Part shown: positions 7,603 to 56,998 of the stretch, piece after piece
Position numbering within the stretch: the first letter of the stretch is position 1
How the letters are laid out: the number at the start of each line of letters is the position of its first letter
Source of the DNA: Candidatus Scatonaster coprocaballi
Lineage (GTDB): Bacteria; Bacillota; Clostridia; Saccharofermentanales; Saccharofermentanaceae
Direction: 5' to 3'
Assembly (NCBI GenBank): GCA_018064475.1
Contig: JAGHVD010000064.1
Location: forward strand, 1-64,000
Length of the DNA stretch: 64,000 bases
Translations under genes and position numbers: made by a program
The notes under the pieces: generated by a model
Seen by the model: the letters and a program-made list of their open reading frames with translations, nothing else
What the model was told of the DNA's origin: nothing
The model's database searches: none

Positions 7603-8406
7603 TTAACAACTCTTTTCCGGCTTTTTTCCAACGAATTTAGCCTTTAGGAAAGTGAGCCCTTTCTTGAATTTGTTGATTTTCTCCATGTAGAGGAAGGGGA
7701 TTTCCTTCACTTGAGTCTTCTTGATTTCACCGTGATCTAACTTATATGTAAGCCATACGTTGAAGAGACGTTCACTGACTCTTCCTGGAAATCTAGCTTC
7801 GAAAGCCGTCTGATCCTTCTTGGTGAGACGTCTATTCAACTCGAACAGAATATCGAAGATCCAGTTACAGTATTCATCCAGTAAGTCAGCACGGAGAACC
7901 ATCATGTTGAACATATATCCCCAAGTCCGATGGAGTGCTTTCTGATAAGCATCTTCATACTGTGGATATTTCTCTTTCAGAATTTGTTCGGCCGTGTCGA
8001 GTTCGTCAATATGGTGGTTGTGCTGGTAATGCTGGTAGAGTGTCTCAATGTAATAGCGACGTTTCTTCGGAACAATAATCGGACAGTTCACGAGGAACGG
8101 TTCGATTTCCTCACGCGTCAAAATCTGGTTGAAGGGATCCTTGTCTTTCCGCTTCCCGCGAAATACTCTTCGATAATGAACGAGACCAATATATTCGGCA
8201 TCAAGATTCTTCCATGCCCAATAAAGTCCAGTCAGCTCACAGAACTGAGGATTAAGTAAAGAGATATTCTCCCCTTCGTTATCTTTCTGATAACCGAGTT
8301 GGAGATCCTTGCCCTCTGCACCGACGTGAACGGGAAGATACATCTTATCTTCCGGCATGCGGTAAGCTTTATGTGTAGCAACGATGATTTTGACTTTCTC
8401 AGACAT
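7603..8406 (-). CDS. DUF4422 family, putative capsular glycosyltransferase
   Basis: A 267-residue protein with the DUF4422 signature: an N-terminal VKIIVATHKAY, then LNPQFCELTGLYWAWKN, YIGLVHYRRVF and WGYMFNMMVLR. Members occur in capsule and EPS clusters and are thought to transfer a sugar, but the reaction is not established. No transmembrane segment is seen, so it is likely a cytosolic or peripheral enzyme. Only 2 bp separate it from the epimerase gene upstream, and 19 bp from wzx downstream, so it is inside one operon. Confidence 0.82.
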   Translation of the reverse strand: MSEKVKIIVATHKAYRMPEDKMYLPVHVGAEGKDLQLGYQKDNEGENISLLNPQFCELTGLYWAWKNLDAEYIGLVHYRRVFRGKRKDKDPFNQILTREEIEPFLVNCPIIVPKKRRYYIETLYQHYQHNHHIDELDTAEQILKEKYPQYEDAYQKALHRTWGYMFNMMVLRADLLDEYCNWIFDILFELNRRLTKKDQTAFEARFPGRVSERLFNVWLTYKLDHGEIKKTQVKEIPFLYMEKINKFKKGLTFLKAKFVGKKPEKSC

Positions 8407-29206: not shown

Positions 29207-29250
29207 GATACGATTTCAGTTAGTAAATCGCTTTGCTAAGACAAGTACAG

Positions 29251-29291
29251 AAGCTCCCTTCGACGGCATGACGTCGAGGGGAGCTTTTTCT
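29251..29291 (+). terminator. Terminator of the GlsB-like gene (copy A of a repeated terminator)
   Basis: AAGCTCCCTTCGACG and CGTCGAGGGGAGCTT form a 15-bp stem with one mismatch around a 6-nt loop, followed by TTTC. Positions 29254-29299 are identical to 32660-32705. Confidence 0.9.
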
Positions 29292-29299
29292 GTATTAGA
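29254..29299 (+). repeat. 46-bp direct repeat, copy A (left edge of the AT-rich island)
   Basis: It is identical, base for base, to 32660-32705. The repeat covers the terminator hairpin, its T tract and about 10 bp beyond. The two copies are 3406 bp apart and flank exactly the two-gene AT-rich insertion. Confidence 0.92.
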
Positions 29300-29478
29300 G
29301 ATGTGAACCTGTTGAGTACGCGAAGTGGGCGAAACAAAAGACTTCGCAGAGACGTTCTTGTGAAAGACACCCCTGATAACTGCAAGGCTAATGTGATATT
29401 CTCAGAATGACAACAATGAACGCATTGATAGTATAGAAATGTATGAATGCTAAATTTTCACGACTGCATTAAAAAATG

Positions 29479-29509
29479 TTGACAATATATATATATATAT
29501 ATATATAAT
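29479..29509 (+). promoter_or_regulatory. Promoter with an (AT)11 spacer, candidate phase-variable switch
   Basis: TTGACA at 29479-29484 and TATAAT at 29504-29509 are separated by 19 bp made only of alternating AT, part of an (AT)11 tract at 29485-29506. Loss of one unit would give the ideal 17-bp spacing. It is 49 bp upstream of the start of the secreted papain-like gene. The 29300-29478 stretch holds no recognisable gene. Confidence 0.75.
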
Positions 29510-29557
29510 ACCACTTGCGGAAAATGCGGTAATACTGCACAATCAAGGAGGTATTAG

Positions 29558-30352
29558 ATGAAGAAAATAGTTGCCAAACTTATGTTAACAGTTATGATTG
29601 TTTCTGCTATGGTAGGGCTGATGGGAAGACAAATTGTTATGACTGATTCACATGTTCAGGCGTCGGCTCCGACTGCAGCGGAACGTGACCGAGCGGTACA
29701 AGAATTAAATAGAATGGCTGACATCAAGTGGAAAACGTCTAGTACTTTGTACATTTACAATCATACATATACTACGTCAACAACATATACAGGCATGCCT
29801 TATACACAGACGTATAACAATACATATGATGAATTTGTCAGAAGTGGAGCATACAACGGGAAGCAATTAACATACAAGGGCAATGCAAAAATGGGAAATG
29901 ACTGTTCTACGGTGCCTGCATTAGCTTGGAAGTTTAAATACTCTTCGATTCAATATGCAGATATTTGGACAGGTGATTACCTCACTTGTGCTCAAAATGG
30001 GACAAACTCGAGTTATCATTTAGCAACCGTGGGCGGTTATAAAATGGGATCGAAAGACACGAAGCAATTTGCAACGGGCAAAGGTTTGGATAGTATGTCT
30101 AAATACTATAAGGAACTGAAAAAAGGAGATTGTTGTTTCTATCGATGGTATGATGACACAAGTGCTGATGAAAAGGATTGGAAATGGAGAGGACATGTTG
30201 TTGTGGTAGTAGGCACATATGCAGACGGGGTATACATTACGGATCAAATTGGCTGGAGTTCTGGCGATTCTTTTTCAACATGGAGACATATCTACAAGTT
30301 ATCGTACAGTGCTTTGTATAAAAAATACTATGTGCCAGTGAAATTTGTTTAA
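29558..30352 (+). CDS. Secreted papain-fold (NlpC/P60-like) protein
   Basis: A 264-residue exported protein. A signal peptide (about 1-36, ending VQASA) is followed by a domain that resembles NlpC/P60 or amidase-type papain folds. It has TTYTGMPYTQTYNNTYDEF, then GNDCSTVPALAW with the likely nucleophile Cys 116 at a helix start, KKGDCCFYRW (the conserved GD turn before the core sheet), GHVVVVVGTY with His 213, and ITDQIG with Asp 229. Base composition is visibly more AT rich than the neighbours. The ribosome site AAGGAGG is strong. The next gene begins 14 bp downstream. The substrate is unknown: cell-wall peptide or a secreted protein are both possible. Confidence 0.75.
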   Translation: MKKIVAKLMLTVMIVSAMVGLMGRQIVMTDSHVQASAPTAAERDRAVQELNRMADIKWKTSSTLYIYNHTYTTSTTYTGMPYTQTYNNTYDEFVRSGAYNGKQLTYKGNAKMGNDCSTVPALAWKFKYSSIQYADIWTGDYLTCAQNGTNSSYHLATVGGYKMGSKDTKQFATGKGLDSMSKYYKELKKGDCCFYRWYDDTSADEKDWKWRGHVVVVVGTYADGVYITDQIGWSSGDSFSTWRHIYKLSYSALYKKYYVPVKFV

Positions 30353-30366
30353 AAGAGGTGGAGCAA

Positions 30367-32628
30367 ATGAGCAAGGTGAACAGGGGTGTTTCAAGTCTTT
30401 TGAGTATAGTAACTGTGCTTACTATGATGACAGCATGCTGTTCGTCCTCAGTAACGAATACTGTCGCTTCTTCACATAATAATGAAGAAGCGACAGTATT
30501 TTCTCATAGTATTGGAGAAACCCCATACTTTGGGTGTACAGTTTTTGACACAGTGACTGAAACAAGTCTGTCCGGTCACCAAGTGTGTTGTGGCGTAGCA
30601 ACAGACACTGAAGTATGGATACTTACTCTCGATTGGGACAATCTGAAAAATTATTCGAATTATTCGATGGAAAAGTTTAGTTTTCAAGGAGAACTATTGG
30701 AGAGTTATCCTGTACCGTGTTCATTGAATGGAACGATTGATTCTTCTGTGTTCATACAGGACGATTCATTAGTGATTACGGCTAAGGATTTTTTGTCGTT
30801 GACAGTTTACAAATTTGATATGACTACTCACGATGTTTCTGTTATGCTCAATATTCCTTCAAGTGATGGAGCGCAATTCTGCGATGTTTTTGCTCTGAAA
30901 GATAATGCTATATATGTATCTACTTGGGAAGATGAGGGATATTCGTTCCGTGGGTACAATCTTTCTGATGGAAGTCTGAAAGTGAAACCAGAAGGAGTAG
31001 TTTCAACGGAGGGTGGTTTCTTCTGGTGTGACAATCGGATGTATGCTTTAGGTATTGAGACGGGCAGATTCGAGTATGAACTTCTTTACTTAAACGAGGA
31101 TAACAAGTATGAACAGTGTGGTTTGATTCAACTTCCTGCCTATGCATCAAAAATGCGAAATATAGATAGCCAGCAATATATGAACTCTAGCGAAGGTCTT
31201 TGGAGACTTGATTCGGTTACTGGCACTTGGCAGGAGATGGTACACTGGGACAACACGGATTTGCACCTTGTATTTCCAGATGGATATTCAGTATCTAAAG
31301 ATGGGACTTCTTTGGTAGTTTGGGAGAAAGATACACAATATGCAGGATTTTTATACCCTGATAGTAATCCTTCCGAAGGGAAGACGACGTTCACAGTAGT
31401 TGGGAATTGGATTACTCAAAATGAGAAGTATCAGTGGGCAGTTTCAAAGTTTAATAAGACAAATGAGAAGTATGCGGTTAAATTGCTTGATTATGAAGAT
31501 ATCCTAGATCCCAATGAATACCTAGATTCAGAGGGAAATGTAGATTACGATGCATATTGGAAAGCATTCAATGATTACATCTGGAAAGAATCAGTTAATG
31601 GAGAGGGTCCAGATCTTTTTATCAAAGACAACACATGGAAGTATTTCGAGTATGGCGGGCTCTTTGTAGATTTAAAAACGAAGTATGATGGAATGGGAGA
31701 AGAATGGAAAAGTCAGTACTTCACCAATGTGATTGAGACCATGATGAATCAGGAACATCTATATGCGATCCCCATTGAATATAATTTGAACGTTGCTGAA
31801 TTAATGACAGAGTGTGATATAAGTATGGATGCGACATTTGTTGAATGGGAGGCGTACATGAATAGACAAGCCGAGGGACGTGTGCTATTCAATGATGTGG
31901 GCATAGACTTACTAAATGATGTTTTGAAATACGACATGAGTTCCTTTGTTGATGGTTCAACAGGAAAGACTTCTTTTGATTCTCAGGAGTTTCGGTCACT
32001 GCTTCATTTAGCTAAGGATTATTGCGTTACGCAGCAAGAGTATGATAATTGCATCTACAGAGACAGTGTGCTGAACAGAACTTATTATAATCCAGAAGAA
32101 GTTCATTTAGCAGTTTCGACTCAAAGGGCTGATAAAAGGTATGGATGCCTATCGGCTACGGGTCCTTCTTTGGTGCTTTGTCCTCAATTGGCCTATGTAT
32201 CTTCTAGTTGCGATGATGTAGACGGAGCGTGGGAATTCATATGCTTCCTTCTTTCTGAAGAGATACAAGAGTATGATCTGAAAAATGCGAAGTCTTATCT
32301 TGGAGATTATCCAGTTCGTAGGGATGCACTAGAGTATATGCTTGATTTCCTGAAACATCCGGAAGAACACGAGAATTTCTGGCGTGAGCGTAATGCGGAA
32401 GATCCGGATTGGAAAATAGACGATGAAGTGCCGCTGACAGATGAGGAAAGCCGAAAGTTTGTTGAATTGGTTGAATCATTACACCTCGTTGAATACCCCG
32501 ATACTGAAATTATTGACATCATTATGGAAGAAACGGGACCTTACTTTGCTGGACAGAAAAGTGAAGAAGAGGTCATTTCAATCATAACTAATCGAGTACG
32601 GATAATCCTGGAGGAACGAGAAACGTAA
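30367..32628 (+). CDS. Large lipoprotein with solute-binding-type C-terminal half
   Basis: A 753-residue lipoprotein (lipobox around Cys 24, LTMMTAC). The N-terminal half (about 45-335) is rich in short beta strands with repeated Trp/Tyr/Gly turns and could be a beta-propeller. The C-terminal half (about 340-740) looks like an ABC-type extracellular solute-binding protein: WAVSKFNKTNEKYAVKLLDY, GPDLFIKDNTWKYFEYGG, LYAIPIEYNLNVAEL and WEFICFLLSEEIQEY. No permease or ATPase genes follow, so it may act as a binding or sensing protein rather than a transporter part. Start: ATG at 30367 behind GAGGTGG, preferred over an in-frame GTG at 30358. It pairs with the papain-like gene upstream in one AT-rich transcript. 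Confidence 0.72.
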   Translation: MSKVNRGVSSLLSIVTVLTMMTACCSSSVTNTVASSHNNEEATVFSHSIGETPYFGCTVFDTVTETSLSGHQVCCGVATDTEVWILTLDWDNLKNYSNYSMEKFSFQGELLESYPVPCSLNGTIDSSVFIQDDSLVITAKDFLSLTVYKFDMTTHDVSVMLNIPSSDGAQFCDVFALKDNAIYVSTWEDEGYSFRGYNLSDGSLKVKPEGVVSTEGGFFWCDNRMYALGIETGRFEYELLYLNEDNKYEQCGLIQLPAYASKMRNIDSQQYMNSSEGLWRLDSVTGTWQEMVHWDNTDLHLVFPDGYSVSKDGTSLVVWEKDTQYAGFLYPDSNPSEGKTTFTVVGNWITQNEKYQWAVSKFNKTNEKYAVKLLDYEDILDPNEYLDSEGNVDYDAYWKAFNDYIWKESVNGEGPDLFIKDNTWKYFEYGGLFVDLKTKYDGMGEEWKSQYFTNVIETMMNQEHLYAIPIEYNLNVAELMTECDISMDATFVEWEAYMNRQAEGRVLFNDVGIDLLNDVLKYDMSSFVDGSTGKTSFDSQEFRSLLHLAKDYCVTQQEYDNCIYRDSVLNRTYYNPEEVHLAVSTQRADKRYGCLSATGPSLVLCPQLAYVSSSCDDVDGAWEFICFLLSEEIQEYDLKNAKSYLGDYPVRRDALEYMLDFLKHPEEHENFWRERNAEDPDWKIDDEVPLTDEESRKFVELVESLHLVEYPDTEIIDIIMEETGPYFAGQKSEEEVISIITNRVRIILEERET

Positions 32629-32659
32629 GTAACACAACAACACAGTAAACAGTTCAAAT

Positions 32660-32705
32660 CTCCCTTCGACGGCATGACGTCGAGGGGAGCTTTTTCTGTA
32701 TTAGA
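32660..32705 (+). repeat. 46-bp direct repeat, copy B; also terminator of the two-gene island
   Basis: It is identical to 29254-29299. The stem CTCCCTTCGACG / CGTCGAGGGGAG followed by CTTTTTC should terminate the lipoprotein transcript. It forms the right boundary of the AT-rich island. Confidence 0.9.
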
Positions 32706-32814
32706 AAAGTGCGACGAATTGAATATATCCAATCTGTTTTTTCAAAAATGTGTAGCACTTCTTTCATTTGGTTCGTATAAATAGATGAAAACAAACTGAA
32801 AGGAAGAAAGAATT

Positions 32815-32965: not shown

Positions 32966-33047
32966 CGGTTGAATGGGAATTGATGCAACGGAGTTTCCAT
33001 ATAATTTCCACGGTTTGACTGTTCCATGGAAAAAATATGGAAATGTG

Positions 33048-33104
33048 TTGACAAGGGAAATGGTCGCGGTATAATGAATTTAGTCAAAGATAGTCAAAGT
33101 CAAA
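33048..33104 (+). promoter_or_regulatory. ctsR operon promoter and CtsR operator
   Basis: TTGACA, 16-bp spacer, TATAAT (33070-33075). Directly downstream lie CtsR heptads AGTCAAA (33082-33088) and AGTCAAA (33092-33098) with the canonical 3-nt gap, followed without gap by a further GTCAAA (33099-33104). This is the known CtsR site, placed so that bound repressor blocks the start point: heat or protein stress should release it and the repressor controls its own operon. Confidence 0.92.
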
Positions 33105-54634: not shown

Positions 54635-56998
54635 ATGGGCAAGCACGTTTGGAAGTATTTTACGAGCGTCCTGCTCGTACTGATGTTGATCTTTACACCA
54701 TTTGGCATGTTACATGCGGCAGATGGCGTGAGTGCAGATGTGAGTATCAATAGTGGAAATGTGAACGTAGTTTCAATTACGAACAATAGTGATCAGAAAG
54801 TCATCGGGTGGACAATAACGATCAAAGGTGTTCCTGCTGGTGCGACCCTTGGAAGTACATGGTGTGCAAATGTTTCACTCAATGGAGATACATTGACCAT
54901 TAAGTCTTCTTCTGAAAACGCTTGGAACAATGTAATCGAAGCAAAAAGTACAAACACTAATATTAGTGCCGGATGTTACCTATCTGGTGCAGAGGACTGG
55001 CAGAATTGGCAGGTTAGCATTTCACCTGTTTTTGAAAAAACAGAACCGAAACCGACGCCTACGCCTGTGCCAACACCGGCGCCAACTGCAACACCGGCGC
55101 CAACTGCAACACCGGCTCCGACTGCGACGCCAACACCGGCACCTGCCAATACGCCAACACCGGTGCCGACCAAGGCTCCAAATGAGACCCCGACACCTGT
55201 GCCGACAGCTACGCCAACAACGACGCCTACCCAGTCGTCGACGACAGCCAATACATCGGAAACCACGACACTGGAACCAACTTCTTCCACAACGGAAGGG
55301 ATCGTGGAACCGGTCAATGGGGACGACTGGCTGACTACGGATGGCAATAAGATCGTAGATATGAATGGTACACAGGTATGGCTGACCGGTATCAACTGGT
55401 TCGGCTATAACACGGGGACGAATATCTTCGATGGTTGCTGGAACTGCAACATGGAAAGTGCGATCAAGGCGATTGCAGATCACGGGTTCAATCTACTGCG
55501 TATTCCAATCTCCGCAGAACTTCTTCTGAATTGGAAGAATGGTGTGTATCCGGATGCAAATTTCAATCAGGCTTCGAACCCGGAACTTGTAGGGAAGAAC
55601 AGCTTGCAGATCTTTGACTATGCGATTTCTCTTTGTAGAAAGTATGGTCTGAAGGTCATGCTGGATATTCATAGTGCGAATACAGATGCGGCCGGACACA
55701 ATGCGAATCTGTGGTATACGGACAAAGTCTCTTCCTCCGACTACTTGGATGCAATTGCATATCTGGCCGACCGCTATAAAGATAACGATACGGTCATCGC
55801 CTACGATCTGAAGAACGAACCTCATGGAAAACCAGGCGAGGAGAAAGCGATTTGGAATGATTCCGAGGCGGAGAATAACTGGAAGTATGTGGCACAGAAG
55901 GCCGGAAATATTGTGCTAGACAGTAATCCACATGCTTTGATCGTCATCGAAGGAATCGAGATCTACCCGAAGGATATTGCTGCGAACGGTGATTTTTCCA
56001 GCGGGGAGAGCGACGATTACTACTTCAACTGGTGGGGCGCCAACTTACGTGGCGTGAAGGATTATCCGATTGATTTCGGTTCGGAAGAGCGAAATCGTCA
56101 GATCGTCTATTCGCCACATGACTATGGTCCGGCTGTCTTCCAACAACCGTGGTTCCAGGGTGAATACACCTATGAATCGCTGAAAGAAGACTGCTGGAAT
56201 GACAACTGGCTTTATATTCACGAAGAGAATATTGCCCCCATCCTGATTGGTGAATGGGGCGGATTCATGACCGAACCGAATCTGACCTGGATGACAGATC
56301 TGCGTCAGTTGATCGGTGAACAGCACCTGAATTTCACGTTCTGGTGCTTCAATGCCAACTCGGGGGACACCGGTGGATTGGTACTCGACGATTTTACGAC
56401 TTGGGATGAAGAGAAGTACGCATTCGTGAATGAAGTGCTCTGGCAGGACGAAGGAAAATTTGTCGGACTGGATCACAAGGTGCCGCTCGGCGACTATGGA
56501 ATGGCGTTATCCGAGTACACGGGTACCATTCAGAATGCCGTGACGGAAGTTCCGGAAACCTCTGCGACAACGGAGACGACCACCGTCCCATCGGAGACGG
56601 TTGCACCTTCTGAAACTTCAACACCGACGCCGGTGCCAGTCGCTGCGACGACTGCAAAGAAGAAGGGAATCTCGTTCTGGACAGTCGTGAAATATATCCT
56701 TCTGGCCTTGCTGGTCCTGGTGATTGCAGGTGGTGTTTTCCTCTTCTTCAAACGTCCGAGAACATGGAACCAGATCATCGACAAGTTCTATCTGCCTGAG
56801 AAGCTCAAGCGCGTGATTCCAGGTGAGATCTGGTCAGAAAATGTAGAAGCCAGACGCTTCCGCTTTGATGATGAGACCATCAGCAAGAACAATGAATTTG
56901 CCGGCCGTTATCGCCCTGTCGCAAAGCCGAACGCCAATACTAATCCTACAAAGAAAGCAGAATCCGTAGATCCGAATGAACCAGACAACAAGAAATAA
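54635..56998 (+). CDS. Membrane-anchored GH5 endoglucanase with CBM and cytoplasmic tail
   Basis: 787 residues. Signal peptide 1-29; a CBM2-like beta domain (30-137); a PT/PA-rich linker (138-220) with near-perfect PAPTAT repeats; a GH5 catalytic domain (about 227-590, subfamily GH5_1-like: GINWFGYNT, LRIPIS, DLKNEPHG with acid/base Glu 395, YSPHDYG, GEWGG with nucleophile Glu 540). A second Thr/Pro linker is followed by a transmembrane helix (about 682-706) and an 80-residue basic tail that would be cytoplasmic. It should hydrolyse beta-1,4-glucan at the cell surface. It has no dockerin or LPXTG. Start: AAGGAG lies 11 bp upstream. Confidence 0.92.
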   Translation: MGKHVWKYFTSVLLVLMLIFTPFGMLHAADGVSADVSINSGNVNVVSITNNSDQKVIGWTITIKGVPAGATLGSTWCANVSLNGDTLTIKSSSENAWNNVIEAKSTNTNISAGCYLSGAEDWQNWQVSISPVFEKTEPKPTPTPVPTPAPTATPAPTATPAPTATPTPAPANTPTPVPTKAPNETPTPVPTATPTTTPTQSSTTANTSETTTLEPTSSTTEGIVEPVNGDDWLTTDGNKIVDMNGTQVWLTGINWFGYNTGTNIFDGCWNCNMESAIKAIADHGFNLLRIPISAELLLNWKNGVYPDANFNQASNPELVGKNSLQIFDYAISLCRKYGLKVMLDIHSANTDAAGHNANLWYTDKVSSSDYLDAIAYLADRYKDNDTVIAYDLKNEPHGKPGEEKAIWNDSEAENNWKYVAQKAGNIVLDSNPHALIVIEGIEIYPKDIAANGDFSSGESDDYYFNWWGANLRGVKDYPIDFGSEERNRQIVYSPHDYGPAVFQQPWFQGEYTYESLKEDCWNDNWLYIHEENIAPILIGEWGGFMTEPNLTWMTDLRQLIGEQHLNFTFWCFNANSGDTGGLVLDDFTTWDEEKYAFVNEVLWQDEGKFVGLDHKVPLGDYGMALSEYTGTIQNAVTEVPETSATTETTTVPSETVAPSETSTPTPVPVAATTAKKKGISFWTVVKYILLALLVLVIAGGVFLFFKRPRTWNQIIDKFYLPEKLKRVIPGEIWSENVEARRFRFDDETISKNNEFAGRYRPVAKPNANTNPTKKAESVDPNEPDNKK

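Follow-up and report, generated by a model that had tools for sequence, protein, structure and literature searches.

A putative slippage-prone promoter spacer upstream of an exported-protein operon in Candidatus Scatonaster coprocaballi

The window analysed here (64,000 nucleotides of the contig JAGHVD010000064.1) contains a promoter of the housekeeping-sigma type whose spacer would be a microsatellite prone to slippage. Comparison of sequences makes it quite likely that length changes of this spacer reversibly reset the transcription of an exported-protein operon of two genes in individual cells. Replication slippage would shift the distance between the -35 and -10 boxes by steps of 2 bp (15, 17, 19, 21 ...). 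The sequenced state of 19 bp would correspond to an intermediate expression, the loss of one AT unit would give the optimal spacer of 17 bp and the gain of one unit a weak promoter of 21 bp. The predicted grading is high for 17 bp, intermediate for 19 bp and low for 21 and 13 bp, and the benefit would be the heterogeneity of a surface function. For the locus of the window, we infer the use of the promoter, the slippage, the effect on expression and this benefit. The promoter and the operon are composed of the following features:

29479-29484, + strand: -35 box TTGACA, 6/6 consensus (read from the sequence)
29485-29507, + strand: (AT)11.5 microsatellite, the promoter spacer being its 19 bp 29485-29503
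29504-29509, + strand: -10 box TATAAT, 6/6 consensus (read from the sequence)
29545-29551, + strand: ribosome-binding site AAGGAGG, 6 nt 5' of the start codon (29558; read from the sequence)
29558-30352, + strand: exported papain-like protein, 264 aa, with a signal peptide; assigned by motif, without Pfam/NCBIfam family
30367-32628, + strand: lipoprotein, 753 aa, lipobox ...MTAC; the C-terminal half matches CbpC
29249-29288, + strand: terminator of the preceding gene, within copy 1 of a 55-bp direct repeat (29251-29305)
32657-32711, + strand: copy 2 of the 55-bp direct repeat, terminator of the operon, 95% identical to copy 1

The interval 29479-29509 reads TTGACA-ATATATATATATATATATA-TATAAT, where the 19-bp spacer is composed only of AT and the two boxes together match the consensus at 12 of 12 positions. 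Tandem Repeats Finder delimits the run at 29485-29507 (period 2, 11.5 copies, 100% match, 23 nt), the final 4 nt being part of the -10 box. The preliminary description of this DNA had reported TTGACA and TATAAT boxes with a pure AT spacer of 19 bp, one AT unit above the 17-bp optimum, and the direct reading of the boxes and of the spacer agrees with it on both points. Its count of (AT)11 is correct for the purity of the run but slightly low for its length, which is of 11.5 units, because the last 4 nt belong to the -10 box. The site was not listed by the promoter scanner, since this program accepts only spacers of 16-18 bp.

The AT run of the window is the longest of the 2.23-Mb genome (whole-genome search), and the only other AT run of at least 12 nt is a 12-mer on another contig (C68). 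Markov models of order 3 to 5, trained on 308 kb of the same genome, put the expected number of such runs at only 3e-7 to 2e-8 per genome, and the run is therefore not a product of chance. The background repeat counts were taken from pattern searches and from sampled stretches, AT runs and A/T homopolymers being counted genome-wide and the other types of repeats in the sampled stretches only. None of 111 other genomes of the family contains an AT run of at least 18 nt, and the search for TTGACA-(AT)n-TATAAT sites was likewise negative in 114 others; AT spacers were thus rejected as a general feature of the family.

The genome holds one other copy of the operon, located on the contig C77 and also composed of a papain-like protein and a lipoprotein. 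Its promoter displays a weak -35 box (3/6) and an A12 tract that abuts the -10 box TAGAAT. A genome-wide search reveals that this A12 is the only A/T homopolymer of at least 11 nt, so that the longest dinucleotide tract detected and the only long A/T homopolymer of the genome are both included in the promoters of the two operon copies. By our own estimate, the chance that one such tract falls within 100 bp upstream of a given gene is about 5e-5 genome-wide, and 5e-4 if the tracts are confined to an assumed tenth of the genome.

A profile search of 112 genomes of the family detected 12 members. Repeat spacers are present in five of them: the window (AT), C77 (A12) and the operons of G027 (A12), G028 (A11) and G029 (T10), which are distant homologues from another genus. 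Concerning the homologues of the same genus, those without repeat have a spacer of 17 bp (G005, G006, G011 and G022) or 16 bp (G016). A second copy in G005 has neither a clear promoter nor a repeat, and no repeat precedes a second copy in G028, which looks broken (one internal TAG). The promoter of G028 is TTGACA-A10-CATATTA-TATTAT and that of G027 contains one A more, which sets the spacers at 17 bp and 18 bp, respectively; the promoter of G029 has a T10 spacer. The alignment of the G027 and G028 loci covers 4950 bp with 25 mismatches (99.4% identity), and the two loci differ in length only in the promoter A tract, barring an offsetting pair of gaps in the misaligned first 30 bp. A variation of the repeat number would be represented by A11 versus A12 between these two near-identical homologous loci. 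No more direct indication of length mutability was obtained than this difference, which amounts to a single base between assemblies and may reflect an error in the homopolymer length. In the tree of the protein family, which is modestly supported and leaves the position of C77 uncertain, members with and without repeats are found side by side, a topology consistent with more than one gain of repeat spacers. Judged from their composition, what the (AT)n, A12, A11 and T10 spacers have in common is a predicted mutability in length, and not a DNA structure.

The pattern TTGACA-(TA)6+-TATAAT was searched in 391 genomes of the class and recovered 8 sites in 6 genomes (including the window), whereas the reversed control pattern recovered 0 sites in the same 391 genomes. 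The spacers of these sites are of 13, 13, 15, 17, 19, 19, 19 and 19 bp. Each of the eight lies about 40-250 bp ahead of the start of a gene in the same orientation, whose product has a signal peptide or a lipobox. The products, named from reading of the sequences, are a matrixin-like protein, small secreted proteins, a lipoprotein, a copper amine oxidase N-domain-like protein, two large surface-type proteins and the protein of the window. Among background genes, 67 of 570 pass the same secretion heuristic (12%; 24% in the highest genome), and the probability that the seven sites outside the window all precede secreted products would be 0.12^7, about 3e-7, or about 5e-5 at 24%, values that rest on a rough heuristic and on sampled stretches. 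In these stretches, every AT run of at least 15 nt is one of these promoter spacers. A T14 homopolymer was also observed at positions 8367-8380 of the locus L128 (genome G434), adjoining a possible ribosome site, and the gene is a further candidate for regulation by a repeat.

A scan of viral contigs served as an outside control; the 8 sites that it recovered show no evident association with secreted proteins, and their number is too small for statistics. Three related viral contigs (L164, L168 and L171, with 93-99.5% identity over the main aligned blocks) carry an AT-spacer promoter of constant length (13 bp), followed in two of them by an ORF of 91 aa. Since these three phage contigs keep the same 13-bp spacer, AT runs are not always unstable.

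Four independent results favour, at the level of sequence, a promoter mutable by slippage over a chance arrangement: the A12 tract in the only paralogue of the genome, the A11, A12 and T10 spacers of the distant homologues, the plain spacers of the close homologues and the secreted-gene sites of the class. The first two, together with the one-base difference between the G027 and G028 tracts, lend support to the phase variation proposed in the preliminary description. This description had also cited the on, medium or off expression of the Haemophilus influenzae hif promoters and regarded the products as of a type that benefits from on/off switching. In Escherichia coli libraries, expression peaks at a spacer of 17 bp, is high between 15 and 19 bp and drops outside this range (PMC8695583). 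An expression that would vary with repeat number is retained, but the strict on/off is not: a graded control is likelier, because spacers of 15-19 bp are all substantially active in E. coli, and the switch may be shallow, since a 19-bp spacer is still active in this species (PMC8695583). For the Clostridia in general, we lean towards a scattered class of contingency promoters reserved for exported proteins, the spacers being AT or poly-A/T repeats; one operon family, with the papain-like protein and the solute-binding-type lipoprotein, would have gained mutable spacers of different units more than once.

The alternative of a static promoter, in which a fixed AT-rich spacer is repetitive by accident, changes of its length seldom occur or are removed by selection, and no switching takes place, seems unlikely. 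It would agree with the constancy of the AT spacer among the three phage contigs and with the presence of a MutS gene (mutS1) in the genome. MutS lowers dinucleotide slippage, which should therefore be slower here than in a mismatch-repair mutant; loss of mismatch repair was rejected as a cause, mutS1 being present. The activity of 19-bp spacers in E. coli (PMC8695583) would suit a static promoter as well. This alternative leaves unexplained, however, why the operon, which has only two copies in the genome, has both exceptional tracts in its promoters, and why the G027 and G028 loci differ in length in the tract only. An artefact of assembly or sequencing in the repeat length is hardly probable: the genome is a draft of 105 contigs and counts of homopolymers or dinucleotides can be off by one unit, but the run of 23 nt is far below the read length with unique flanks, the promoter boxes frame it exactly and the same arrangement is found in independent genomes.

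Two other readings attribute a role to the spacer without slippage. Alternating AT melts or extrudes easily, and the promoter might respond to supercoiling and not to the repeat number, in line with the effect of the GC content of the spacer on supercoiling sensitivity in E. coli (PMC8695583). We regard this as very improbable, as the promoters of the paralogue and of the homologues have poly-A or poly-T instead, which differs in structure from alternating AT and is unable to form a cruciform; a shared trait of mutability, and not of DNA structure, argues against a supercoiling or cruciform sensor. In promoters of the MerR type, a regulator twists the DNA to align the boxes and a length of 19 bp would be deliberate. 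Spacers of 19 bp are described for such promoters (PMC11049809), and the AT run of the window is self-complementary. Nevertheless, no MerR-like gene is adjacent to the operon among the neighbours as read here, a part of which were searched against families, and the homologous promoters have spacers of 16-18 bp and no dyad, which leaves this explanation with very little probability.

The slippage of a promoter spacer is a known mechanism, described for the pilus genes hifA/hifB of Haemophilus influenzae, whose promoters contain (TA)9-11 repeats (PMC2651432, PMC13192263) that yield three expression levels (PMC13192263). The preliminary description had assigned the promoter of the window to this arrangement, and the resemblance holds for the TA dinucleotide repeat, located between recognisable -35 and -10 boxes and setting the spacer length by its number. 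As expected for a contingency locus of the hif type, the repeat is far above chance length in its own genome and the products are exported or surface proteins (signal peptide, lipobox). The resemblance does not hold for the organisation of the locus: the hif promoters, which serve pilin and chaperone, are overlapping and divergent, whereas the promoter of the window has a single direction, with neither a divergent gene nor a pilin. The phylum is also different, a papain-like protein and a lipoprotein replace the pili, and the switching proven in hif is inferred for the window. In the strain F3031 of H. influenzae, hifA loci with TA repeats coexist with others that carry A12 or A17 upstream (PMC2651432); TA and poly-A units are likewise mixed here, between two copies of one operon. 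The copy on C77, with A12 beside the -10 box of a lipoprotein operon, has another parallel. In Mycoplasma hyorhinis, the promoters of the vlp surface lipoproteins have a poly-A spacer next to the -10 box. The G027 and G028 promoters have poly-A spacers too, but beside the -35 box. No relationship is known between the vlp products and the operon proteins, and the likeness considered here is that of the promoter layout.

In a clostridial lineage, promoter phase variation is represented by Clostridioides difficile, where it proceeds by site-specific inversion (PMC11868660) and not by repeat slippage as proposed here. Full-text searches of open-licence papers yielded no description of promoters varying by repeat slippage in Clostridia, and the clostridial phase variation described in these papers proceeds by inversion. 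The negative search fits the earlier remark that the mechanism is rarely reported in this class, yet the sequence arrangement itself recurs in its genomes, and this recurrent use of spacer repeats appears to be so far unreported. For gut Clostridia, most of what is known of phase variation concerns invertible DNA; the slippage of a promoter spacer escapes the tools that find inversions, yet metagenomic reads would reveal it directly. A ready test is offered by the two operons of this genome, with different repeat units for one gene family in one cell, and the scan of the class adds seven candidate loci from five other genomes. With these, it could be seen whether exported proteins of the group are commonly subject to graded bet-hedging.

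The operon itself corresponds to the description given beforehand, an exported papain-like protein followed by a large lipoprotein, since the promoter precedes genes with a signal peptide and a lipobox, respectively. The first protein gave no named family in profile searches of Pfam, NCBIfam or PDB. The motif GNDC (C116), His213 and Gln230 are invariant across 7 homologues, and the protein is therefore named papain-like, by motif. Its AlphaFold model, built from a two-row alignment, had a pLDDT of 40 and was left out of the fold search. The C-terminal half of the lipoprotein matches the solute-binding-type protein CbpC (PDB 7x0o) with an E-value of 6e-16 (family profile). Conservation of the gene pair extends to other genomes of the genus and to a second genus.

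The neighbours of the operon in the window are rpoC, an NlpC/P60 gene, the gene of a Transgly_assoc protein, ctsR and mcsA/mcsB/clpC-like genes. In all of the 17 relatives examined, the Transgly_assoc gene is directly followed by ctsR; an ancestral position of the operon at this site was rejected, and the gene order indicates that it is a lineage-specific insertion. The operon is flanked by the two 55-bp direct repeats, a pair found nowhere else in the genome. Recombination between these copies (29251-29305 and 32657-32711) would delete the whole 3.4-kb operon.

Other repeats were observed in the window. A perfect inverted repeat of 18 bp with a loop of 8 nt (30457-30500, fold z-score -7.2) sits about 30 codons into the lipoprotein gene, with a T-rich stretch after it, and might serve as a terminator within the gene; the C77 copy has no such hairpin. 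An imperfect inverted repeat of 20 nt (32994-33043) is located just 5' of the ctsR promoter (TTGACA-16-TATAAT at 33048). Tandem Repeats Finder detected an array at 97-399, composed of 3.7 copies of an 82-bp unit (90% match), and tandem repeats of 18 and 24 bp with the core CAACACCGGC at 55051-55173, which are probably coding.
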